NCBI RefSeq assembly: GCF_011492945.1
Contig: NZ_CP045119.1
Coordinates: forward strand, 1,860,001-1,924,000
Reading direction: 5' to 3'
Origin: Rubrobacter tropicus
GTDB taxonomy: Bacteria; Actinomycetota; Rubrobacteria; Rubrobacterales; Rubrobacteraceae
Length of the DNA stretch: 64,000 nt
The notes beneath the pieces are model-generated. The model saw only the letters and a program-made list of their open reading frames with translations. It ran no database searches and was not told where the DNA came from. A program made the position numbers and the translations under genes. This document shows positions 3,860-26,365 of this stretch, piece after piece. The stretch's first letter is position 1. The number at the start of each line of letters is the position of its first letter.

Positions 3860-5497
3860 CTAGAGTTCGCCCCCCTCTCGCTCATAAGCTGATGCCGCCC
3901 GGTCCAAGAACTCACTAAACTTCTCGTTAAGCCGTTTCTTGCGCTCGTAGATCGGCCTTAGCTGCTCCACCTCTCGCTCAAGCTCGTACATCCTCCGAGG
4001 CCGCGTATTAGGGTTCCTCATGGCCTCGTTGAGAGCGCGTCTGGCAGGCGCGTATTGTTTAGCCGTCTCCGTCAGCTCCACGGTTAGGTCTTTGCTGGCG
4101 TGAAACCCCTGCGTGAGAAGCCGCTGTAAGGTCGCGTAGCCGCCCTCATCTAGCAGGTCCTCGTTCTCGTTCATGAACTTTTGCGCTTCACGCTCGGCCT
4201 CGCTAGGGGTTTGGTCCACTAGTGCCGCTCCTTCCGCTTCCACCTCAGCTTCTAGGGCTTCTGGCTTCGCTCGCCAAGAACGCACCGTGGTCGCAGCCGC
4301 AGCCGAGTCCAATGCAGCGAGGCGTTCCCGCGTCTCGTAGTAGAAGAACATGTGGTTGCTCTCGATTCTCTTGCGGTCCTCAAGCCATTCCTTGTACGCC
4401 CCTCGGGCCGTCATGCCCGTAGTGGTTCCGCTTCCCAACAGGACCGAGGCGGCGTCGGGCAGGCCCGCCAAGGTGCTTATCATTACGCCGAGCCCGGTCG
4501 CCCAGTCCCCCGGTCTAATGCCCTTGAACAGAAGTGACCTTAACGATCCATTGTCCTGGACGGCTTCCTCTATTTCGAGCACGGCAGGTTTCACGACCTT
4601 GCGGAACTCCTTGTCGGCATCGCTGGGGAAGTCCTCGTCCCACGCCGCCGAGCGGATGTCTTCCGACATCCCTATGACCGCTCCCCGAAAACGGATCAGC
4701 GGGCTTTCGAGTTCACGGCGGATGTCGAGTATCTCCTTGACGGTCGCCTTCTCGAACAGCGGCAGTTGGCGCAGGAGGTCGGAGGCAAGGCCGCTGTGCC
4801 TCCCGCGTGCTTCCCCGCTCTCGGTGGGCGACACCACCCCGGCCTCCATCCCCGTTCTGACGAGATTGCCGGACATCTGATCGAACAGGGGGTTGGTATC
4901 GCCGTCGGCCACCGCATCGCCGATCAGGTTCAAGAACTCCCAGAAGAGGTCCTCGACGAACTCCTCTTGTCTCCGGTCTTGGTCCTCCGGCCCTAGTCCG
5001 CCCATCCTCTCCACCCCGCCGGCCTCGAACCGGTGCAGGTCGAGGAGTCCGGTGTCCACGGCCTCCATGATCCCGTCTGCTCCTGCTACGCGGAGGAACT
5101 CACCGATGCCTTCCTCGAACTTGGCCCATATTCGTCTCATGCCCGCCTGCACCTCGAACATGGTTTGTATCTGAGCCTTGCTACGTGTCCCTCCTCTGCG
5201 TCTCTGCAAATCCCGGTACGTTGTCACGAATTCGCGCATGTTGACCGCTGCTTCGGGGTTGGTCGAGGCCAAGTCCTCAAAATACTGCCTCAAGAACTCC
5301 ATACGCTGGCGGTTCGAGGCATCCTTGAGCTTGGCAAACTCCAGGGCCAGGGAGGACCCGATGCTGCACAACCGGACCCGATCCGCGTAGAGAAGTCCGG
5401 CCTTGACCAGCAGAAGATCGTTCTCCAGGCTGAGCTGTCCGACGGTGGGGTGGAGGCCCAGTCCTGTGCCGATGGTGAAGTGTAAGGGCCTCGACAT
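3860..5497 (-). CDS. Unknown protein, about 545 residues, mostly alpha-helical
   Basis: The open frame begins at 5539, but ATG at 5497 (MSRPLHFTIGTGLGL) is preferred because the preceding residues look non-coding; its Shine-Dalgarno (GAGAT) is weak. The protein opens with a segment of the form 'SLENDLLLVKAGLLYADRVRLCSIGSSLALEFA', followed by long helical stretches rich in Glu/Arg/Leu. One moderately hydrophobic patch lies at 'GDWATGLGVMISTLAGLPDAASVLLGS'. The C-terminal ~150 residues are strongly charged and likely coiled coil ('RRMYELEREVEQLRPIYERKKRLNEKF'). I recognise no family or catalytic motif. It is isolated from its neighbours by about 120-350 bases on each side. Confidence 0.7.
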   Translation of the reverse strand: MSRPLHFTIGTGLGLHPTVGQLSLENDLLLVKAGLLYADRVRLCSIGSSLALEFAKLKDASNRQRMEFLRQYFEDLASTNPEAAVNMREFVTTYRDLQRRRGGTRSKAQIQTMFEVQAGMRRIWAKFEEGIGEFLRVAGADGIMEAVDTGLLDLHRFEAGGVERMGGLGPEDQDRRQEEFVEDLFWEFLNLIGDAVADGDTNPLFDQMSGNLVRTGMEAGVVSPTESGEARGRHSGLASDLLRQLPLFEKATVKEILDIRRELESPLIRFRGAVIGMSEDIRSAAWDEDFPSDADKEFRKVVKPAVLEIEEAVQDNGSLRSLLFKGIRPGDWATGLGVMISTLAGLPDAASVLLGSGTTTGMTARGAYKEWLEDRKRIESNHMFFYYETRERLAALDSAAAATTVRSWRAKPEALEAEVEAEGAALVDQTPSEAEREAQKFMNENEDLLDEGGYATLQRLLTQGFHASKDLTVELTETAKQYAPARRALNEAMRNPNTRPRRMYELEREVEQLRPIYERKKRLNEKFSEFLDRAASAYEREGGEL

Positions 5498-5663
5498 ATC
5501 TCTAATAAGGAAGTGTAGCCGAACTGTCCCGGACCTCAAGAGGCACCTTGGTCCTCACGAGGCGAGCGAGTCGAGTCGGCTTGCCACCGACTTCATAAGG
5601 CCGTAGCGCGGTTCGTAGTGACCATGAGAGAATGTCTTCGTTTGCAACCGAGGGAGGCGGTTC

Positions 5664-9976: not shown

Positions 9977-12838
9977 TCAGCCCCCACCATAAATCGGTTT
10001 GTCGTTCAAGTTCTTTTTTCCCGTGTTCGTGGCGTGGGCGTGCTGGGATTCCGTGGTCGAACCCGCCGCGCCCTGGGGGTTTCTCACGTCTTTGACCTCA
10101 AAATACTTGGAAGCCCTTTCGGAGAGGTCTATCTCCGCCTTGTAGCCGGCCTTCTCGCCCTTGCCGGGCTCTCCCAAGTTTAAGCCTCCCTTCTCCCCGA
10201 GGTAAGCCTGGCCGCGAATGTCCTGCAAGTTGTAATCCGCAACCGTCAGGTTCTTTCCGCCGACCCGGATCTTCTGTTTGCCCTGGTTCAGCCTCTTCAG
10301 CAAATCGGGGTCGCCGAGAGCGTCGGCGAGAGTCTTGTCGCCCTTCCCGGCGAGCCTTACGTTTTCGAGATCTATGTCTTTGTTCTGGCCGACCAGCCGG
10401 CCGACGGCCCCGTCGCCCTTCGCCTGGTCCCTAGAGGCGCGGTAGAGCTTGTTGGCGTCCCACTGGTCGTAGGTGAGGCCGTCGCCGCTCCACTTCCCGC
10501 TCCCTATGCCTTTGGCGGCGAGGGATTGCTGCTTCTCCTTCTTTTTTCTTTCTTTCTGTTGGGTCTCGAATTCCTTTCTGGCGTTGTCGGGGGTGATGTT
10601 CGGGTTGGTTATCATCTCGGCGACCTCATCGACGCTCATGCCCTTGAACGCGCTCGCCCACGGTTCCATCTGCATCGCCATTTGCAGTTGGTAACGTCCG
10701 TTCGTGCTCAGGTTGCCGTCGGGGGCCATCTCGACCATCCCGCCGAGCTGCTTGGCAAGTTCGATCCTGCCGGCCGCCATGGCCCCCGGATCTTGCTGTT
10801 CGGGGCTTAAAGACGGGTCCATGCCCATCATCATCATCGCCATCGGGTCGTTCATCATCGCGGCGTCGGACTCGATCATCTTGCCCACGGTGCCGGCGTT
10901 CTGGAAGAGCAAGTCGGCTTCTTCTCCGCCGCGAGACATCAAGCCGCTGTAGGCGAGGGCACTCTCTGGAGCCTCGGCGTAGCCACTAACGGGACCGAGG
11001 GTTTCTATTGCCTGCCCAACGTACCCCGAAATATCCTGCTGCGTCAGTCCCCGTCCCGCTTGGCTCTGAATCATTGAGGCGACGTATCGGGCGGTTTCCA
11101 CGCCACCTAGAGATCCCGTGGAGCCCGCCCGTTCCAACTGCGCCACCAAGGCAGGGGCCAAATTGAAGTCGGCGACCACGCGAGATAGGGGCTCGACCTT
11201 CTCGGCCGCCGATTCGACCGAATCTCCGAGCCTAAGCAGTTCGTCCGTGAGGGCCGAGATTTGTGCCGGGTCGAGAAACGGGTTCTTAAGGCGGGCCCGG
11301 TTCTGGGACTCCCTTAAACCGCCGGCTCCTCCAGACGCCCAGAAGGGCGTCGCGACCTGCAAAGCCTGGAGCAAATTGTTCTGTGCTCCCTCACCTTGAA
11401 GGTTCTCGCCCGAGATTGCTTCCGCCTGCTTCGCGAACGCGACCTGGTCGGCGTAGGGGTCCATAACTCCTCCCACGACCTTACTCGCACCGTAACCCAA
11501 ACCGAGACCGACGGCCGTTCCCACGGGGCCGCCGAGGGACCCCGCGAGCCCACCAATGCCTGGCAACGTAGACGTGACGGCGTTCGTTACTGAACCCGCG
11601 CCAGTCCTCCCGCTCATGGCGGTCAGGTCGGCTGTTGCCGATAGTCCGGCAAATCCGAGAGCGGCGGGCCCCAATGCCCTCAACGCTCCGCTGTTAATTA
11701 CTTTGCCGGCCATCTGTCCTGCCCTCGAATCTCCGAGGAGGCTCCCGGCCTTGCCCGCCGCTCCTGCTGCCGCACCTAACCCCATAGGCACCGCACCGCC
11801 CTGCTGTTCCTGCTGGGGATTTACTGGATACCCGAAAGCGGTCTCGGTACCCTGATCGGCGCTGCGTGCGGTAATCACGTCTGCGGCAAGGGCCTGTCCC
11901 CGAACGGGGTCGTTGACTATTTCTTCCCGATTGTTGACGTACTCTGCTGCTTCTTCGGGTTTTAGGAAACCTTTCTCACGGAGGGCTCTGAGGTCCTCCA
12001 AGTAAGGCTGCTCTCCTTCGTCTTTCCAACGCGACAGTAATTCGCCCTGCTCTTCCGCCTTTAACTTGTATTGCTGCTCTATTTCTTGGGCGCGGGTTCT
12101 GGCTTTCTCTAGGGCCACCTCCTCCAGCTTCCGGCGGAACAGGTCTTGCTCCTCGCCGACTACCTTCTCTGCCGCCTCCTGGTACAGTTCTCCCTCGTCG
12201 CCGCCGGACTTGTTCCTGACGAAGCGTGCGAAGCCGCTTGGCGCTTTCTGTCCCGACTCTTTCAAGACCCTGTTCAGGTCTTCCTGGTTGCCGCTGCCGA
12301 CGAGTCCTCGGATCAACTGTTCCGTTGGGGCAGTCTTCATGGTTTGCTGGCGTTCTTGCTCACCCAGATTCCGGTAGTCGTAAGACAGCCGGGCGGCCAT
12401 TTGCGGGCTGACGGTTTCGTCTATCTCCGAGGCCACGGTGGCGTGTTGACGATACACTTGATTAACAGCCTGATCGAGGCCCGACGTGTCCACCGAACGC
12501 ACCCTCTCGCCCTCGACGCGGCTCTTGACACCGAAGGACCGTCCCAGCTTCTTCGAGAGGCCGTCCACCTGCATGTCGATCTTGGTCAGATCATCGAGGG
12601 TTAGGTTCTCCGGGCCGGCCTCAAGTTTGCGGTTGACCTCGGCACGGAGTTTAGAGAGTTGTTCGTGCTCTACCTCCGTTTTCAAACGGCGGACGAACAG
12701 ATCGTGGGCCTTTATATAGTCTTCGCCTTCACTGAGGCCACGGGCACGATTGTAAGAACTCTCGGCCTGCTTGCTCCTCTCGGAATTTGGACCCGAGAAG
12801 AGGGACTGTATAAGATCCAACACGTCGGAATTTATCAT
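9977..12838 (-). CDS. 953-aa tape-measure-like or internal virion-like protein
   Basis: Residues 1-320 are highly charged and helical, with coiled-coil stretches such as 'QDLFRRKLEEVALEKARTRAQEIEQQYKLKAEEQGELL'. Residues about 350-470 form a Gly/Ala-rich hydrophobic block ('GLGAAAGAAGKAGSLLG', 'GFAGLSATADLTAMSG', 'GIGGLAGSLGGPVGTAVG') that could span a membrane. The rest is helical, with a Met-rich patch ('MMNDPMAMMMMGMDPSL') and a polar C-terminus. Long helical regions around a hydrophobic core are typical of phage tail tape-measure proteins, but I see no lysozyme or peptidase motif and no tail genes nearby. It is the largest gene of the minus-strand series and begins 65 bases after the beta-rich gene. 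Role uncertain. Confidence 0.6.
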   Translation of the reverse strand: MINSDVLDLIQSLFSGPNSERSKQAESSYNRARGLSEGEDYIKAHDLFVRRLKTEVEHEQLSKLRAEVNRKLEAGPENLTLDDLTKIDMQVDGLSKKLGRSFGVKSRVEGERVRSVDTSGLDQAVNQVYRQHATVASEIDETVSPQMAARLSYDYRNLGEQERQQTMKTAPTEQLIRGLVGSGNQEDLNRVLKESGQKAPSGFARFVRNKSGGDEGELYQEAAEKVVGEEQDLFRRKLEEVALEKARTRAQEIEQQYKLKAEEQGELLSRWKDEGEQPYLEDLRALREKGFLKPEEAAEYVNNREEIVNDPVRGQALAADVITARSADQGTETAFGYPVNPQQEQQGGAVPMGLGAAAGAAGKAGSLLGDSRAGQMAGKVINSGALRALGPAALGFAGLSATADLTAMSGRTGAGSVTNAVTSTLPGIGGLAGSLGGPVGTAVGLGLGYGASKVVGGVMDPYADQVAFAKQAEAISGENLQGEGAQNNLLQALQVATPFWASGGAGGLRESQNRARLKNPFLDPAQISALTDELLRLGDSVESAAEKVEPLSRVVADFNLAPALVAQLERAGSTGSLGGVETARYVASMIQSQAGRGLTQQDISGYVGQAIETLGPVSGYAEAPESALAYSGLMSRGGEEADLLFQNAGTVGKMIESDAAMMNDPMAMMMMGMDPSLSPEQQDPGAMAAGRIELAKQLGGMVEMAPDGNLSTNGRYQLQMAMQMEPWASAFKGMSVDEVAEMITNPNITPDNARKEFETQQKERKKKEKQQSLAAKGIGSGKWSGDGLTYDQWDANKLYRASRDQAKGDGAVGRLVGQNKDIDLENVRLAGKGDKTLADALGDPDLLKRLNQGKQKIRVGGKNLTVADYNLQDIRGQAYLGEKGGLNLGEPGKGEKAGYKAEIDLSERASKYFEVKDVRNPQGAAGSTTESQHAHATNTGKKNLNDKPIYGGG

Positions 12839-13903: not shown

Positions 13904-14502
13904 TGATCCTTTCGGGAGTTTGTCGCGGCGGGTATTTCTTCGTCAGGGGCGATAGCTTCGTTCGGGCGGGAAGGCTCGGCGAAAGGGTCTCCCTCCCAGG
14001 TGATAACCATGGCCTCTTTGAGAGCCCGCCAGACCTCCTTCCTAGGGACAGCCACCGAGACAGTCGTGTATCCGTCGTTCTTGGCCTCAATCCTGGGGTA
14101 CTGCGCGATCCATGCCTTGTGATTCGCTTCCCAAGTGTGTCGCAGCAGTTGGAAATGAAGCAGGTAGCACTTCTTGGCGGGAACGACAACATACGACACA
14201 AAGTCACAGTTGAGATCCTTGGAGATCCAGCCCGGAGTTTTCCTCTCGTATGAGGAATGGTATTCGAGGAGGAAGTCGCCATAGTCTTTCTGACGAACCT
14301 TCTCGTCGACCTTGACGATCGAGCCGTCGGAAAGAATCAGGAGGCGATCGATGCCAGCCCTTTGCGCCCAACCATCTTCTGTTATCGGTTCTGCGGAGAC
14401 AAGACCGGGAAAGCGTTTCTTATAAAGATCAAACCAGAACGGAGAGTCTTCGAGATCCTTACTCTTTTTGAGGCTCTGCTGGAAATTGTGGATCTTTCTC
14501 AC
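13900..14502 (-). CDS. PD-(D/E)XK-like nuclease domain protein
   Basis: 200 residues. The segment 'GIDRLLILSDGSIVKVDEKVRQKDYGDFLLEY' fits the PD-(D/E)XK core: an Asp after a hydrophobic strand, a beta hairpin, and a (V)DEK motif on the next strand with a conserved Tyr/Gln helix following. Downstream strands ('CDFVSYVVVPAKKCYLLHF') fit the fold. Catalytic residues would be the Asp of GIDR and Glu/Lys of VDEK. In phage-type modules such proteins act as resolvases or recombination exonucleases. Its start overlaps the stop of the ParB-MT-A70 gene by four bases (ATGA), and its stop overlaps the next start. Confidence 0.6.
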   Translation of the reverse strand: MRKIHNFQQSLKKSKDLEDSPFWFDLYKKRFPGLVSAEPITEDGWAQRAGIDRLLILSDGSIVKVDEKVRQKDYGDFLLEYHSSYERKTPGWISKDLNCDFVSYVVVPAKKCYLLHFQLLRHTWEANHKAWIAQYPRIEAKNDGYTTVSVAVPRKEVWRALKEAMVITWEGDPFAEPSRPNEAIAPDEEIPAATNSRKDQ

Positions 14503-15794
14503 GAGGCGGCCCCCAGGACCTCGTTTCCCCAGGCGTCGAAGCCAGGGCGAGCACCCCTCGCGAAGAGCTCGACCTTACTTTCATCCTGGTACATCCGCTC
14601 TATTACCTTGTAGAAATTCTCCGTTTTCGCGGAGTGATTCTTGCGATCACCGTAGAAGACTGAGGACGGCCGGTCGGAGGGTTCGGGTACTGGAGGGTTG
14701 CCCCTCTTGCCAATCAGAACAAGTTCGTGCTGCTGGCGAGCGTAGTAACCCATTCCGATTCTGTTCTTGACCCATACCATGCAGGTTCTGTAGTCGAACC
14801 CCCACGCCTCCATGACCTCCAGCGCCTCTGTTAGCTTTGGGGAAGTGGCCCACAAGAAGAGGACTGCGTCCGCCTCCGCAGGGACTTCTAACGCTTTGAT
14901 CTCTTCGAGGCGCATGGTCGGATACTGATTTTCCACGCGGCGTGAGTCGGAGGTCGAGAACGAGTATTTCCAGGGTGGGTCCGCTACGAGGACCTCGTAG
15001 CGGCGATCGAGGGGCGGGGCTTCGCGCAAGGTAGCCCTGTGGGACTCGCGCCTCGCTTCCCTCTCGACCCTGTCCTGTTCCCTCTTCATTTCTTCGTAGA
15101 CCTTGAAAGTGTTGCCGCCCTCTTCGGTCAGGGCCGCGAGAGCCACCTCGGCCGCCACCTCGTCGCCGCGCTTTTTGGTGATGTTAGCGAGATGGTCTAA
15201 CTGCGTGGTGCTGTTGAGTAGGTTGCGGGTCTTATCGTCGGTGGCGTCTGCGTGATCGAGGATCGCCGAAGTTTCCGGCCCCAGCCTGCCGATCTTGTGG
15301 CGGCGTTGGTAGGTGCGTTCGCTCATGCCGGCTTCGCCCGCCAGACGCTCGTTGGTAAGGGGTGACACCGTGTCGCCCCTAGAATTAGAATGTCGATTGT
15401 CTCCAGATTGCGCCCTCTCGTTCCGAGCGTCGAGTATTCTTTCCCGCTCGGCGACGTGGCGGGACTGCTCCCAGACGGTGAGGTCGTTGCGGCAGAGGTT
15501 CTCGTCTATCTCGGCGAGGCGTGCCTCGATCTCGTCGTAGTCTCTTATCTCGGCCCTTATCGTCTCCCAGCCCAAAATCCCCGCCGCCTCGTACCTGTGA
15601 AGACCGGCGACGAGGGTGAGATCGGGCGTGAGGATGATGGGGGAGAGCTGGCCTCGCTCACGCATGCTCTCGGCCAGAGGAGAGGGATCGTGGCGTTGCT
15701 CCCGCACGCGCCCATCCGGGACGAGGATGTCGTCAAGAGAGATGTCGCGAGTGATCGGGTGGCCCGAGGTCTCCACCGGGGCCAGCCCCATCAC
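14499..15794 (-). CDS. ParB N-terminal domain fused to MT-A70 adenine methyltransferase
   Basis: 431 residues. Residues about 15-115 form a ParB/Srx-like domain ('ISLDDILVPDGRVREQRHD', 'LAESMRERGQLSPIILTPDLTLVAGLHRYEAAGILGWETI'). A helical ParB-type HTH region follows ('LAGEAGMSERTYQRRHKIGRL'). Residues about 262-431 are an MT-A70 methyltransferase with the catalytic DPPW ('VLVADPPWKYSF'), 'VLFLWATSPKLTEALEVMEAWGFDYRTCMVWVKNR' and 'QQHELVLIGKRG'. It is expected to make N6-methyladenine in DNA using SAM. Such fusions occur on phages and integrative elements and may guide methylation to ParB-like sites or protect the element from restriction. Start GTG 15794 or ATG 15791; both overlap the upstream stop. 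Confidence 0.85.
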   Translation of the reverse strand: MMGLAPVETSGHPITRDISLDDILVPDGRVREQRHDPSPLAESMRERGQLSPIILTPDLTLVAGLHRYEAAGILGWETIRAEIRDYDEIEARLAEIDENLCRNDLTVWEQSRHVAERERILDARNERAQSGDNRHSNSRGDTVSPLTNERLAGEAGMSERTYQRRHKIGRLGPETSAILDHADATDDKTRNLLNSTTQLDHLANITKKRGDEVAAEVALAALTEEGGNTFKVYEEMKREQDRVEREARRESHRATLREAPPLDRRYEVLVADPPWKYSFSTSDSRRVENQYPTMRLEEIKALEVPAEADAVLFLWATSPKLTEALEVMEAWGFDYRTCMVWVKNRIGMGYYARQQHELVLIGKRGNPPVPEPSDRPSSVFYGDRKNHSAKTENFYKVIERMYQDESKVELFARGARPGFDAWGNEVLGAAS

Positions 15795-18756: not shown

Positions 18757-19086
18757 CTACGGGGCTTTTCTCTTCAGCCTGTTAATCAGGTGATGGGCCT
18801 GTTGGGAGGATAGGCCTCCTGCGCAGGTGATAACGTCGAAGAAGTCTTGGGTCTCCTCCTCGCTGAGTTTCGCCAGGGTGAGGACGAAGGCCATCTGGTC
18901 GGGAGTCGCTCCTGCCGCGTCTCTGGCATTTCCTGCTGGGAAGCAGTCGTTCAAGAGGTCGCAGACCTCTTTGGCCTTTCCTTCCACGTCCTTTGAGAGA
19001 TCGACTATCCTGAAGGTTCGCCTGAGGTGGTCTCCCCACAGTGCCATTCTGTCGGAACCGCTTTCGGAACTCCTACCTCGGGTCAT
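18757..19086 (-). CDS. Small helical protein, paralog of 18233-18568
   Basis: 109 residues. Its ATG overlaps the stop of the primase gene (ATGA), so it is translationally coupled to it. The core 'LRRTFRIVDLSKDVEGKAKEVCDLLNDCFPAG' ... 'AGGLSSQQAHHLINRLKRKAP' aligns along its length with the protein encoded 150 bases further on. Coupling to the primase suggests a role in replication of the element, such as an accessory or copy-control factor, but no family is recognised. Confidence 0.7.
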   Translation of the reverse strand: MTRGRSSESGSDRMALWGDHLRRTFRIVDLSKDVEGKAKEVCDLLNDCFPAGNARDAAGATPDQMAFVLTLAKLSEEETQDFFDVITCAGGLSSQQAHHLINRLKRKAP

Positions 19087-21806
19087 CCGCGCACCACCCG
19101 ACCCTTAGAGGTGTTGCTCTTCCCCTTGTTCGTGTACAGTTCGAGTAATTCCTTGCCCCTCTGCAGTTTCTCTTCGGCTTTTCTCCTGTTCTTCTCCCAC
19201 TCCTCCAGGTTGACCCGGTCCGCCTTTCTCTCTCGTCCAGCGCGTCCTCTGATTTCCTCGTACTTCTCCGCGCTTCCCGACCGAGTGAACACCTCCTCTA
19301 GCGCCTGCTCGAAGTTCTCCGCCTTCTCGTAGCTTTTCCCGTAGCGTTCATCTTGGAAAGAAACGATCAGGCTCTCTTTCTCTAGCGGGCGTAGGTACCT
19401 ACGCCTGAAATTGCTCTTCTCCTTGTCGGTGACGACGTCAAAGAACTTCTCCAGCTCAAGGAGCGATCTGCGGCCGTAGTCTATCTGCTCCAAGACAAAC
19501 TTCTGCTTCGGGCTCAGGCCCTGCGTGCGGACGAGATTCAGCCTCGTCGCTGCGTCCATTGGACGGTCGGGCGACGGTTGTTGGAAGCGGTAGACGGGGG
19601 CGTTGTAGGGAGCCGAGAGGGCCAGAGGGGGGTGGAGTAGAAATTCCCCCTCGAAGCCCCTGTGCTCGTCCTTGTCGGGGTGGTCCTCCTCCACGCGGGT
19701 GCGCAGGAGGAGGTCCTTAATGTTCTTGTCGTGGCAAGCCATGGAGTTCAGGGGTGAGCGGAAGGGCGTCTTGGGTACACTCTTCATCGTCCTCCTGAAA
19801 CTCAGCGTTTGGAGAGGGTGACGCCAGAAGTCTATGCCGAAAATGTCGAGATCGTCCAGGCCTCGTTGGAAGGCTTGACAGCCGCTGAGTGTCCCTACGA
19901 ATCCCGTCGGATACGGGATGATCTTTCTGGGAATGTGCTTGGGGCTTCTTAGAAGGTAGACAGACGGCTCTCTTTTGCGACCCTCCTTGAGCGTCTTGAT
20001 CAATCCCGCCTCCTCCAAGATCTTCCGCCTTTTGTTTGTCCCGCCTTTCGAGTACACGCCGCTGCCTTGCATGAGGCCACGGACCGCTGCCTCCACGACG
20101 ACCTCGGGTTCGCCGTCATGCTGGTCGATCTCGCGGAGAACCTTCTTGTCGATGCCGTACTCGGGACCTATATCCTTCTTTAGCCTCCCGTCGATACGCC
20201 CCTTGCCAATGAGGGCGAGGTAGTCGTAGCAGGCGTTAATGCCCCCCGACACGTCCCAGACCAGGCCTAGTCTGATCTCCTCAAGGACGTCTAAGGCCGA
20301 ATCCCTCTCTCCGTTGTCGGGCCTCCAGTCGGGATCGAAAATGGTCTCGGAGAGCGCCATTTTCAGGGTGCGGGTCCTGTAGGTCTCGTCCTTCCAGTTG
20401 TCCTTATATAGGCCGGACCTCCTGAAGAGCCTGTCGACCCTGGCCTCGTCGTTGCCGGTGACGAACGACAGCATGGAGCAGAGACCGAGTTGGGCCGCTT
20501 CCAAGCCCTTTTCTGAATCCTTCTCAGGTTTTTCGTAGGGGCCGGAGTCCGTCCACAAGCCCTCATCACCTTCCCAGAGCTTCTCGAACCTTTCGCCCTT
20601 GGTCTCCGCCAGTTTGCGCAAGAGGTCATTGTCGGAGAGGTAAACCTTCGCCCTGGGTACTTCCCTGTCGTCCTCCTGAGTGGAGGAGTAGGCCGGGTCG
20701 TAGAAGTTCCCTTTGCAGGAGGAAATGGCCTTCTCTATGTTGTTGTTCAGGTAATCCGGGCTCCACCTCTTCTCCCTGCGCATGCCGGAAGAAAGTGCGA
20801 TTCTGAGTACACGCCCCTTGTCTCCCCTAGCGTAGAACGCAAGTTTCCTAAAGAACGCCAGGTCGGCATAGGACCGCCTCTTGTAGATGGCGTTCTCGCC
20901 TTTCCACAGGCCCTTATCGCCGACCATGAATTGCTGGATCAGCTCGCCGTCTTTCTTGGAAGAGCGCATGATCTCCAAGATCTGTTCCTCGGAGACGCCG
21001 AGAGGCTCGGGAATCGCGGCCTCTTTGTCGTCGCGCGGGGGTTTCTTCGGAATTCTCTCGTCCATAAAGCCCTTTACCTCCCGCAGAGGCTTGTCCTCCA
21101 GAACGGCCCCGGTGAAGGTGATGAGGTGACGCCCGCCTCTGTTGCCGCCGTAAACCTCCAGCCTGCGGTACCCGTCTTCCTTCTTCGTGACGAAGTGTTG
21201 TCCGTCAGGTGTGTAAAAGAAGCAGCCTCTTTCCTCGGGCTCTCTTACAAGCCCTATGGCCCTGATCCCTTCACCCGAAGGGGACACCTCGGCGTAGGTG
21301 TCGAGGCTCCACAAGATCTCCTCGGCCCAGGGCTCTATCTGCCCAGTTTCTGGGTCGCGGCAGTTGTCGAGGTCGAAGAATACGGGGTAGACTTTCTCCC
21401 CCCCGATCATGATGGCGCGTCCCGGTTCGATTAGGAGGCCTATGCCCTGGAGATCTCTGTTCTCGCAAAAGGCCGCGTGAGCCTCTTCAAATTTCCCCCA
21501 CAGGCCGAGGTTCCTTTCCCAGTTCTCTTCCGACCAGTAGATAATGCCGAGCGTTCTCGGGCTCCTGGCGAGTCGGCTCCCTTTCTTCCAGATCCCATTC
21601 TGATGATCCCACTTCGGACGCTCGTACTTCCAGACGTACCACCTTAGTTGGGGAATAACGCCTTCGAGGGGCCGGGGGACACGGCCGGAGGGTTTTATCC
21701 TCGACCTCTTTGCGGCGGGTTGATAGGCCTTCGACCCCCGCTTTGAATTCACGAGGTCCCTTCCTGCCCGTCGACTCGATCGGTCAAGGAGCACGGTTCC
21801 TTCCAT
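19083..21806 (-). CDS. Primase-polymerase of NrS-1 / phage-plasmid type
   Basis: 907 residues. Residues about 120-235 carry the primpol core: 'YPVFFDLDNCRDPETGQIEPWAEEILWSLDTYAEVSPSGEGIRAIGLV' with the metal-binding DLD, then 'GNRGGRHLITFTG'. Two following blocks resemble the helix-bundle domain of NrS-1-like polymerases: 'LIQQFMVGDKGLWKGENAIYKRRSYADLAFFRKLAFYARGD' (about 290-335) and 'FEKLWEGDEGLWTDSGPYEKP...LGLCSMLSFVTGNDEARVDRLFRRSGLY' (about 400-470). No clear Walker A helicase motif was found, so it may rely on a host helicase. The C-terminal third is charged with coiled-coil stretches. The start (ATG 21806) has a weak ribosome site. It is the first gene of a three-gene unit with the two paralogs. 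Confidence 0.8.
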   Translation of the reverse strand: MEGTVLLDRSSRRAGRDLVNSKRGSKAYQPAAKRSRIKPSGRVPRPLEGVIPQLRWYVWKYERPKWDHQNGIWKKGSRLARSPRTLGIIYWSEENWERNLGLWGKFEEAHAAFCENRDLQGIGLLIEPGRAIMIGGEKVYPVFFDLDNCRDPETGQIEPWAEEILWSLDTYAEVSPSGEGIRAIGLVREPEERGCFFYTPDGQHFVTKKEDGYRRLEVYGGNRGGRHLITFTGAVLEDKPLREVKGFMDERIPKKPPRDDKEAAIPEPLGVSEEQILEIMRSSKKDGELIQQFMVGDKGLWKGENAIYKRRSYADLAFFRKLAFYARGDKGRVLRIALSSGMRREKRWSPDYLNNNIEKAISSCKGNFYDPAYSSTQEDDREVPRAKVYLSDNDLLRKLAETKGERFEKLWEGDEGLWTDSGPYEKPEKDSEKGLEAAQLGLCSMLSFVTGNDEARVDRLFRRSGLYKDNWKDETYRTRTLKMALSETIFDPDWRPDNGERDSALDVLEEIRLGLVWDVSGGINACYDYLALIGKGRIDGRLKKDIGPEYGIDKKVLREIDQHDGEPEVVVEAAVRGLMQGSGVYSKGGTNKRRKILEEAGLIKTLKEGRKREPSVYLLRSPKHIPRKIIPYPTGFVGTLSGCQAFQRGLDDLDIFGIDFWRHPLQTLSFRRTMKSVPKTPFRSPLNSMACHDKNIKDLLLRTRVEEDHPDKDEHRGFEGEFLLHPPLALSAPYNAPVYRFQQPSPDRPMDAATRLNLVRTQGLSPKQKFVLEQIDYGRRSLLELEKFFDVVTDKEKSNFRRRYLRPLEKESLIVSFQDERYGKSYEKAENFEQALEEVFTRSGSAEKYEEIRGRAGRERKADRVNLEEWEKNRRKAEEKLQRGKELLELYTNKGKSNTSKGRVVRG

Positions 21807-23425: not shown

Positions 23426-25297
23426 ATGGCAGAAAAGCATCTAACGGCGGTCCCATCGCGGGCCGCTTTGTACGTTAGGGTTTCGACCACCAGGCAGGAC
23501 GACGGCTTCTCGCCGGAGGCGCAGGTTCGCACCGCCACCGAATACTGCGACGCCAACGGTTTCCGGGTGGTCGAGACGGTAAAGGACGTGGATTGGTCGG
23601 GGGGATGGTCGGTACGTCCCGGCCTCGACGAGTTGCGGGATCTCGCGGAAGCCAGAAAGATAGACGTGGTGGTCGTCGCCGTCCGCGACCGCTGGGCCAG
23701 GGGGCTCCTGGCGCAGGTCCTCAAGGAGGAGTTCGAGGAACTCGGGGTCAGGGTGGTCGCCCTGGATTCGAGGGGGGACGATTCCCCTGAAGGGCAACTG
23801 GCCGACGGAGTGATGGACCTCTTCAGCGGCTACGAAAAGAAACGCGTCGTCAGGCGCATGTTCGGCGGCAAGCTGGAGAGGGCGAGGAAGGGGCAGGTCG
23901 TTGCCACCCGCGTCCCTAAATACGGCTACCGTAACTCCGAGGACCGCAAGACCTACGTCGTAGACGAGGAGAAGATGGCCGTGGTCCGGCGGATCTTTCG
24001 CATGATCGGAGTGGAGGGCATGACACTCAGGTCCACGAGAAAGGCCCTCGAAACGGAGGGCACACCCTCTCCCTCGGGCCGCCCGCGATGGGTGGAGAGA
24101 ACCATCAAGGAGATCGTTCAGAACGATGTCTACAGGCCTCATTACTCGAAAGATATCGCGGAGTTGGTCACAGCTCGCCAGATGTCCCCAGAGGTCTTCG
24201 CGGACCTGGACCCAGAGCAGCCATATGGCGTTTGGTGGTTCAACACGCGCAAGAACGTCACGCGCCCGGATGTGGAGGTGGGTCCCGGCGGCAGAAGGGA
24301 GTACCGCAAGCGCCGCGTCACCACGAAAAAGCCCGAGAAGGACCACATAGCCGTTCTGGTCCCCGACGCCGGGGTACCCTTGGAGTGGGTCGAGGCCGCC
24401 CGTGTATACCTGGGCTCGAACAGGTTCCCGAATAGCAACAGCCCGAAGGTCTTCGAGCTGTCGGGAGGGATGTTGCGTTGCGAGAGGTGCGGGATGGTCC
24501 TGCAGGTCTATCACCGCAAGGAGCGTCGGAGAAAGACCCAACCCGACTATTTCTACTATCGTTGCTCGACGAAGGTGCGGGAAGGGAAGGACGCCTGCGG
24601 TGTCCCGCCTTCCTACAGGCGCGAAGACCTCGACGGGATGGCGTGGACCTTCGTCAAGACCCTCTTGAGCAACCCGGAACTGCTGAAAAAGGGGCTCGAC
24701 GAGATGGTGAGGCAGGAAGAAAAACTGCTCAGGGGCGACCCTGCGGGCGAGGCGAGGCGATGGCTCAAGAAGGCCGAAGCGTGCGAGAAGGAATCGGGAC
24801 TGTTGCTAGACCTCTACCTGAAGGGCAAGATCGACGAGGCCGCCTTCGACGCCAAAAGGATCGAAATAGAGGAAAGGAAGGACCACGCCATGGTGGAGGC
24901 GGCGAAGTCCAAATCCCGCACCTCGCGGCTGGCCTCACTAATGGAGGCGCGAGAAACGCTCGTCGAGAAGTACGCCGCAACGACATCGGAGCGGTTGAAG
25001 AACCTATCCCCCGAAGGTCGCCAAAGGATCTACCGTATGATGGGGTTACGGGCGACCGTGGATGAGGGCCCGACCCTGCTCCTGGGCGGCCGGCTGATAG
25101 AGGCGATAGGAGAGGAAGGGCGCACTACACTTGAGAACGCTACCGAGATCGCGCTAGAGTCCGGCTACCTGAAGAGCGCCGGCCGCACCCCCCAGAACAC
25201 CATGCGCGCCCGCCTCTCCGTGGACGTGCGGGACAACCCCGAGACGCCGTTCGCCCAGACGGCCCCGGGCGTCTACCGGCTGCGGGAACCCAATTGA
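23426..25297 (+). CDS. Large serine recombinase (integrase) with HARE-HTH-like C-terminal tail
   Basis: ATG at 23426 preceded by GGGAGAGAGG. 623 residues. The resolvase catalytic domain is about 12-150 ('AALYVRVSTTRQDDGFSPEAQ', nucleophile Ser in YVRVS; 'VVVVAVRDRWARG'). The recombinase domain is about 170-300 ('KYGYRN', 'RRIFRMIGVEGMTLRSTRKAL', 'WVERTIKEIVQNDVYRPH'). A zinc ribbon is about 345-400 (CERCGM... and the later C...C pair in 'YRCSTK...DACGV'), followed by coiled coil. The final ~55 residues ('NATEIALESGYLKSAGRTPQNT' then 'MRARLSVDVR' and 'GVYRLRE') look like the second half of a HARE-HTH winged helix, which is not a normal part of this family. It integrates and excises the element at att sites. 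The downstream chromosomal-type gene starts 58 bases later, so this is probably the element's right end. Confidence 0.92.
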   Translation: MAEKHLTAVPSRAALYVRVSTTRQDDGFSPEAQVRTATEYCDANGFRVVETVKDVDWSGGWSVRPGLDELRDLAEARKIDVVVVAVRDRWARGLLAQVLKEEFEELGVRVVALDSRGDDSPEGQLADGVMDLFSGYEKKRVVRRMFGGKLERARKGQVVATRVPKYGYRNSEDRKTYVVDEEKMAVVRRIFRMIGVEGMTLRSTRKALETEGTPSPSGRPRWVERTIKEIVQNDVYRPHYSKDIAELVTARQMSPEVFADLDPEQPYGVWWFNTRKNVTRPDVEVGPGGRREYRKRRVTTKKPEKDHIAVLVPDAGVPLEWVEAARVYLGSNRFPNSNSPKVFELSGGMLRCERCGMVLQVYHRKERRRKTQPDYFYYRCSTKVREGKDACGVPPSYRREDLDGMAWTFVKTLLSNPELLKKGLDEMVRQEEKLLRGDPAGEARRWLKKAEACEKESGLLLDLYLKGKIDEAAFDAKRIEIEERKDHAMVEAAKSKSRTSRLASLMEARETLVEKYAATTSERLKNLSPEGRQRIYRMMGLRATVDEGPTLLLGGRLIEAIGEEGRTTLENATEIALESGYLKSAGRTPQNTMRARLSVDVRDNPETPFAQTAPGVYRLREPN

Positions 25298-25354: not shown

Positions 25355-26365
25355 ATGGTCGAGGTTGCGGATAGGGCGGTAGAGGCCGCCTGGAAGGTAA
25401 GAAACCTTGAGGACTTTGATCGGCGGCTGGCCCGCGCGGCCCGGAGGCTGGACGAAGTCACGGGCGGGCTCGCCGCGATGGTCGTCTACGAGACGGCCCT
25501 CATGAAGAGCGGGCGCCCGCCCGAAGAGGTGAGGAAGATGGTCCGCTCGTTCCGGGATGCTTTCGAGGACGAGGAGGAGCCGCTCACCATCGCCCACACC
25601 AGCGGCATAATGAACGTGGAGGGGAACGACTGGTTTTTCGGGGACGGCGCGCTGCGCGTCCTCACCGGCAAGCTCCTCGGGCAGTTCCAGCACCGGGTCG
25701 CCCAGTACAACTACGTGGACGAGAGGGAAGTGCTCAGGCGCTGGGCCGACGGCTACGACACCCGCCTCTTCGTGCGGCGCAGGATCTTCGAGACCGAACC
25801 CGTTATAGGCGTGGTCGGCGGCCTCGACCTCTACCTGCTGCAGCACCTCCGCGTCGCCGCCGGCGGCAACACCCTCGTCCCAGGCCCTGACGTTGCCGGG
25901 GCGCTGGAAGCCCTCGGTTACCGCGCGGGCGCCGACCCCTACGAGACGCTGGCCGCCGCCGAAGACCTGGCGCTGCGCCTGGACCTACCGGCCCCCGTGG
26001 TCGGCGAGATGCTCGCCGAACTCGGCCGCGAGGGCTTCAGAGACTACCCGGAGCCGCCGCGCGGCGAGACTCAGGAGACACCTTCCGAGTCATCCCGGGG
26101 AGAGGAGATCGCTTCGGAGGGCGGGGCCGTCTCGGGCGGCGCGGCCGACGAGCCGGGAGAGCAGAAGCCTGTCCCGCCGGAGAGGGCGGAGCGGGCGGAG
26201 GTACGGGGAGATCCCGCCTCGGGAGAAGAGCCGTCGAGGGTTCAGGACCCGCAGGCGAAGGACGCGCCCGGGGTCGCGGAGGAGGAAGGGCCGGCCAGGA
26301 AGGCCTCGCCGCCGGGGTCCGGCCGGCAAGACGAGCCCGGAACCTCGGGGCGGGAGGATGCATAG
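25355..26365 (+). CDS. Unknown protein with acidic disordered tail
   Basis: 336 residues, ATG at 25355 with GGTCGAGGAGAT upstream. The first ~230 residues are folded, with helical motifs ('RAVEAAWKVRNLEDFDRRLARAARRLDEV', 'GALRVLTGKLLGQFQHRVAQYNYVDER'). The last ~100 residues are Glu/Pro/Gly/Ser-rich and probably disordered. No family recognised. It is the first gene to the right of the recombinase and marks the return to chromosomal-type sequence. Confidence 0.65.
   Translation: MVEVADRAVEAAWKVRNLEDFDRRLARAARRLDEVTGGLAAMVVYETALMKSGRPPEEVRKMVRSFRDAFEDEEEPLTIAHTSGIMNVEGNDWFFGDGALRVLTGKLLGQFQHRVAQYNYVDEREVLRRWADGYDTRLFVRRRIFETEPVIGVVGGLDLYLLQHLRVAAGGNTLVPGPDVAGALEALGYRAGADPYETLAAAEDLALRLDLPAPVVGEMLAELGREGFRDYPEPPRGETQETPSESSRGEEIASEGGAVSGGAADEPGEQKPVPPERAERAEVRGDPASGEEPSRVQDPQAKDAPGVAEEEGPARKASPPGSGRQDEPGTSGREDA

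Follow-up and report, generated by a model that had tools for sequence, protein, structure and literature searches.

Integration into a host HARE-HTH gene appears to exchange the tail of a large serine integrase in Rubrobacter tropicus

Why should a large serine integrase end in part of a HARE-HTH domain? The question is raised by a gene of Rubrobacter tropicus that lies in a stretch of 64,000 nucleotides (NCBI RefSeq contig NZ_CP045119.1, positions 1,860,001 to 1,924,000), here termed the window; positions are those of the window unless given as genome coordinates with the prefix C1. In the initial annotation of this DNA it was recognised that the end of the protein looks like the second half of a HARE-HTH winged helix. 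Two explanations were put forward: that integration had taken place inside a host HARE-HTH gene, leaving the integrase to read through attR into the 3' end of that gene, or that the integrase had truly gained a DNA-binding domain. The gene and its unusual end are:

23426-25297, + strand: large serine integrase gene, integrated form, 623 aa (open reading frame, Pfam domains, PHROG integrase family, junction)
25145-25297, + strand: 3' part of the interrupted host HARE-HTH gene, now integrase tail and stop codon (PF05066 profile positions 24-70; intact homologues in relatives)

In its domains, the product of 23426-25297 is a large serine integrase, with a resolvase domain, a recombinase domain and a zinc ribbon with coiled coil. 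Its matches to Resolvase (PF00239), Recombinase (PF07508) and Zn_ribbon_recom (PF13408) are all above the Pfam cut-offs, and residues 439-516 form long helices in an AlphaFold model. The serine S20 of the YVRVS motif and the zinc-ribbon cysteines C352, C355, C380 and C391 are invariant in 20 aligned integrase sequences. Residues 1-576 are element-encoded and residues 577-623 are host-encoded (47 residues, LESGYL...REPN). The section that corresponds to the 3' portion of a HARE-HTH gene spans residues 574-623.

The HARE-HTH profile PF05066 is matched from position 24 to position 70 by integrase residues 573-621, with a score of 27.4 bits against a curated cut-off of 25.9 bits. In a search of the whole genome this is the sole HARE-HTH match (E = 4.4e-6). 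The match goes beyond chance: stand-alone HARE-HTH genes in 29 relatives share 55-90% identity with the tail over 47-65 residues, and 19 related integrases that were tested gave no match to the profile. The resemblance first noticed is genuine. The interval to which it had been assigned, 25110-25297, needs trimming: its first ~35 bases are element-derived, and the host part begins at a core at 25145-25153. A complete HARE-HTH domain (profile 1-71) is absent from the integrase, which lacks the first 23 profile positions.

A matching 5' half had been predicted at the left end of the element, beyond the window. It is present there, directly after pheA, and the host neighbourhood is completed by a gene downstream of the integrase:

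C1:1850129-1850209, same strand as pheA: 5' half of the HARE-HTH gene (outside the window, 34.9 kb from the 3' half)
25355-26365, + strand: conserved host gene of unknown function, 3' neighbour of the intact HARE-HTH gene in relatives (54-83% identity, 28 relatives' loci)

The 5' half starts seven bases past the stop codon of pheA with ATGGACTTCAAGGAAGCC, continues to GACATCACGGAGATCGCG, and is followed by element DNA. In a relative (locus L010), an intact HARE-HTH gene is preceded by pheA, identified by its sequence as encoding chorismate mutase/prephenate dehydratase; the R. tropicus pheA gene (C1:1848988-1850115, same strand as the HARE-HTH halves) is 90% identical to it. When the two halves are rejoined they form a complete 74-aa gene, exactly, in frame and gap-free, which scores 60.7 bits over profile positions 1-70, compared with 22.9 and 27.4 bits for the halves alone. 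The rejoined gene is 68-88% identical over nearly its full length to intact HARE-HTH genes of ~75 aa in 29 of 30 relatives' loci; identity to the L010 gene is 88% over the whole length, and to the gene at locus L003 it is 38%. Near-full-length HARE-HTH matches are found in 33 of 35 same-family relatives, the other two being incomplete assemblies. The uninterrupted copy that was to be looked for in relatives therefore exists, and it stands before the same downstream gene: a homologue of 25355-26365, itself without a Pfam match, lies 3' of the HARE-HTH gene in every sufficiently long locus but L003, which holds a more distant second HARE-HTH copy.

The junctions between element and chromosome can be placed precisely:

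25145-25153, + strand: 9-bp shared core GAGATCGCG at attR (encodes E-I-A, in frame in int and in the HARE-HTH gene)
25123-25153, + strand: predicted element-side arm of attP (22 bp) plus core, inside int (imperfect inverted repeat)
1-25144, no strand: portion of the element inside the window (element start C1:1850201, 9.8 kb left of the window)

The core is identical at attL (C1:1850201) and attR (25145) and, being common to both ends, defines an element of 34,944 bp. The predicted attB is CACTACGGGGACATCACGGAGATCGCGCTAGAGTCCGG, and joining the ends of the element gives a predicted attP of CACTACACTTGAGAACGCTACCGAGATCGCGTACCATAAGGTAGTG. The latter holds a 22-bp imperfect inverted repeat in which 14 of 22 positions are symmetric about GA, the first two bases of the core. 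Symmetry of this strength is found at only 15 of 34,864 element positions, and other centres tested near the core score 2-8. In its symmetry the predicted attP agrees with what is known of attP sites of serine integrases. The G+C content is 60.4% in the element (1-25144) versus 66.6% in the flanking chromosome (25300-64000). Judged from its junctions, the locus appears to be a clean site-specific insertion in the HARE-HTH gene, as the first of the two original explanations proposed, with int reading through attR into the 3' end of a gene whose halves rejoin.

We put the probability at roughly 0.93 that the locus arose by attP x attB integration in the HARE-HTH gene, with attP inside int and the tail as a passive by-product. 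The sequences show the split gene, the core, the flanks, the reading frames, the predicted product of the circle and the recurrence in relatives. According to this reading, an integrative element of ~35 kb would enter the chromosome by site-specific recombination between attP and attB. The attB site would lie within a small host HARE-HTH gene, between pheA and the conserved gene of unknown function, and attP wholly inside the 3' coding end of the element's own int, in frame with the host gene. Integration would split the host gene between codons 27 and 28 and swap the last 26 residues of the integrase for the last 47 of the host protein, both being effects of one event because attP lies inside int and in frame with the host gene; its location within the 3' coding end of int is also why the integrated integrase carries a host tail. 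In the predicted circle, int encodes 602 aa: the frame crosses the core into YHKVVVSFSATLRMERKPVVSWEMAE, the native tail of 26 aa that is exchanged on integration, and then meets a stop codon. The truncated host gene gains this native tail in return, giving a 53-aa open reading frame. Excision would restore both int and the HARE-HTH gene. We infer that the element was or is mobile and that a circular form has existed; a scan of IMG/VR with the integrase found no close relative of the element in free form.

About 20 of the larger open reading frames of the element were scanned against PHROGs, giving matches to primase, nuclease, ParB/methyltransferase and ribonucleotide reductase-like families and none to capsid, portal or terminase. 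A Cro/C1-type HTH protein is also encoded (Pfam). The 907-aa product of 19083-21806 (- strand), with matches to PHROG DNA primase and to the NrS-1 polymerase HBD (PF22763), is a possible replication protein, and in the 431-aa product of 14499-15794 (- strand) a ParB-like nuclease/partition domain is fused with a DNA methyltransferase. A protein of 326 aa inside the element (locus L035, 7527-8507, + strand; PHROG 6397) resembles the large subunit of ribonucleotide reductase and is shorter than usual large subunits. Two large proteins of 953 and 559 aa (9977-12838 and 3860-5539, both - strand) have neither Pfam nor PHROG matches.

Integrases at 30-41% identity are present in many Rubrobacterales genomes, and their tails are completely different from each other; a profile scan gave further relatives, of which the tails of the two closest were inspected. 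The stop codons of these integrases lie in, or at most about two codons from, host-gene sequence at 12 protein-coding targets, HARE-HTH included, and at one tRNA gene, where a single integrase stop falls inside tRNA-Ser. The 12 protein-coding targets divide equally by frame. Four are in frame: HARE-HTH, a small TPR gene, a helix-hairpin-helix gene (L154) and a DUF1348 gene (L161, profile 92-129 of 130). Four are on the same strand in another frame: radC, ybaB, manganese catalase and kptA, the ybaB and catalase stops being at the edge of the Pfam match. Four are antisense: an SDR dehydrogenase, a DNA methylase, a gene with a pilin-like N-methylation motif and a zinc-ribbon gene (three elements). 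The helix-hairpin-helix, TPR, pilin and zinc-ribbon assignments are from matches below Pfam cut-offs, the TPR target being backed by relatives (its C-terminus is conserved in 20 of 41 genomes searched) and the other three partly by recognisable motifs.

Some targets recur. The integrases of L037, L038 and L045, each from a different genome, run antisense into one and the same zinc-ribbon gene, and radC is the target at both L041 and L061. In Rubrobacter marinus (G030), examined for a second element closed at both ends, dnaX does not adjoin the ybaB junction and the search for a left end was negative. Selection for in-frame fusions was also considered; four of 12 targets are in frame against two expected (one sixth), which at P = 0.125 is not counted as evidence.

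For the related integrases, the presence of attP inside int is deduced solely from the position of the host sequence, and it appears to be a layout common to this Rubrobacterales integrase group. As far as these positions indicate, it is the layout that is common to the group and not the kind of tail. Because the stops of the relatives fall into all three frame classes with respect to host genes, the tail is not a conserved domain. The idea that it is conserved for function was likewise rejected, as the tails of the relatives share nothing and keep no constant relation to the host reading frame. The HARE-like tail, whose presence on related integrases at other sites would have told against insertion in a host gene, occurs on none of the 19. 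What the initial annotation missed is that attP inside int is a recurring layout, beyond the accident of a single insertion.

In the AlphaFold model of the integrase (mean pLDDT 77.6, pTM 0.46), the body is folded to about residue 578, with pLDDT <50 for residues 581-623. The model was built from an alignment of 16 integrases with no HARE homologues covering the tail, so that the low pLDDT supports disorder without proving it. The structure prediction that had been suggested as a check thus gives no folded HARE-like tail. Since the folded part of the integrase ends before the exchanged residues, the new tail is most likely a by-product of integration, carried passively, tolerated by the enzyme and presumably without function.

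The exchange might instead serve as a switch, the 602-aa circle form and the 623-aa integrated form differing in activity, specificity or stability, such that integration tunes or locks excision. Two different C-termini do follow from the sequence and the layout recurs across related integrases. There is also a precedent in Myxococcus phage Mx8, in which attP lies inside int and the new 3' end acquired on integration altered integrase specificity without inactivating the enzyme (PMC6070905). Against this, the integrated-state tails of the relatives share nothing, whether in frame, out of frame or antisense, and the R. tropicus tail is outside the conserved serine-integrase body and unfolded in the model, which together make a switch rather unlikely. 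Given the variety of tails, any such effect would come from loss of the native tail, not from gain of a particular one. It is similarly doubtful, and slightly more so, that attP inside int has been kept by selection because an arbitrary host tail makes integration self-limiting, with the circle integrating and the integrated form excising or re-integrating less.

Elements such as skin, SP-beta and gin interrupt host genes in a developmental or regulated manner, and excision here could in principle rebuild the HARE-HTH gene under conditions in which the host requires it. The precise splitting of a conserved single-copy gene with a 9-bp core is reminiscent of gin, which splits gerE, also with a 9-bp core, and rebuilds it on excision (PMC5595907). 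Nevertheless, among the same-family relatives the gene is intact in all but the two incomplete assemblies and is never seen interrupted by this element, related integrases use many different targets, and nothing known ties the HARE-HTH gene to development in these bacteria. A regulated interruption is accordingly quite improbable.

Acquisition of a real HARE-HTH DNA-binding domain for target recognition, the second of the original explanations, would account for the significant Pfam match and the open reading frame. It is very improbable, however: the domain lacks its first third, and what is present comes from the target gene, whose missing half stands at the opposite end of the element; none of the 19 related integrases tested carries the domain, and the model leaves the tail unfolded. 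That the locus is an assembly artefact joining unrelated DNA, a concern because the species is represented here by one assembly, can be dismissed almost entirely, as a single 4.38-Mb contig holds both junctions with their shared core, the halves rejoin exactly and in frame, and the same layout is found in other, independent assemblies.

Integration with exchange of the integrase tail, the reading preferred here, has its closest precedent in Mx8. In both, attP lies within the int coding sequence and int acquires a new 3' end after integration, here by predicted frames. Mx8 Int matches PF22022, the tyrosine-integrase central domain, whereas the R. tropicus enzyme is a large serine integrase; moreover, the change of specificity is experimental in Mx8, while the R. 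tropicus integrase is known from sequence alone. In mycobacteriophages BPs and relatives, which show integration-dependent immunity, attP also lies inside a phage gene and the phage and prophage forms of the protein differ at the C-terminus (PMC9262239, PMC8092301). There, however, attP sits in the repressor gene, the phages use a tyrosine-family integrase and the change removes an ssrA-like tag; the tail lost by the R. tropicus integrase (..SWEMAE) is unlike such a tag. Serine integrases often disrupt protein-coding genes (LSR survey, Durrant et al., PMC10083194), and in this survey and in the gin study a serine integrase near its own attachment site, a short core and a split target gene are again encountered, but the accessible portions of these two sources note no swap of the integrase's own tail. 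A literature search in which subscription journals were poorly covered found no serine integrase with attP inside int or a C-terminus exchanged on integration, which is weak evidence of novelty.

Seemingly new C-terminal domains of serine integrases can be pieces of target genes, which gene callers and domain databases will otherwise record as false fusions. Cloning an integrase of this Rubrobacterales group from its integrated element would bring a foreign tail along. Attachment sites used by serine integrases are hard to find owing to their short cores; as the tail identifies the gene that holds attB, it aids their mapping. If it is true that the exchange alters the activity of the integrase, it would provide a simple, built-in control of directionality.
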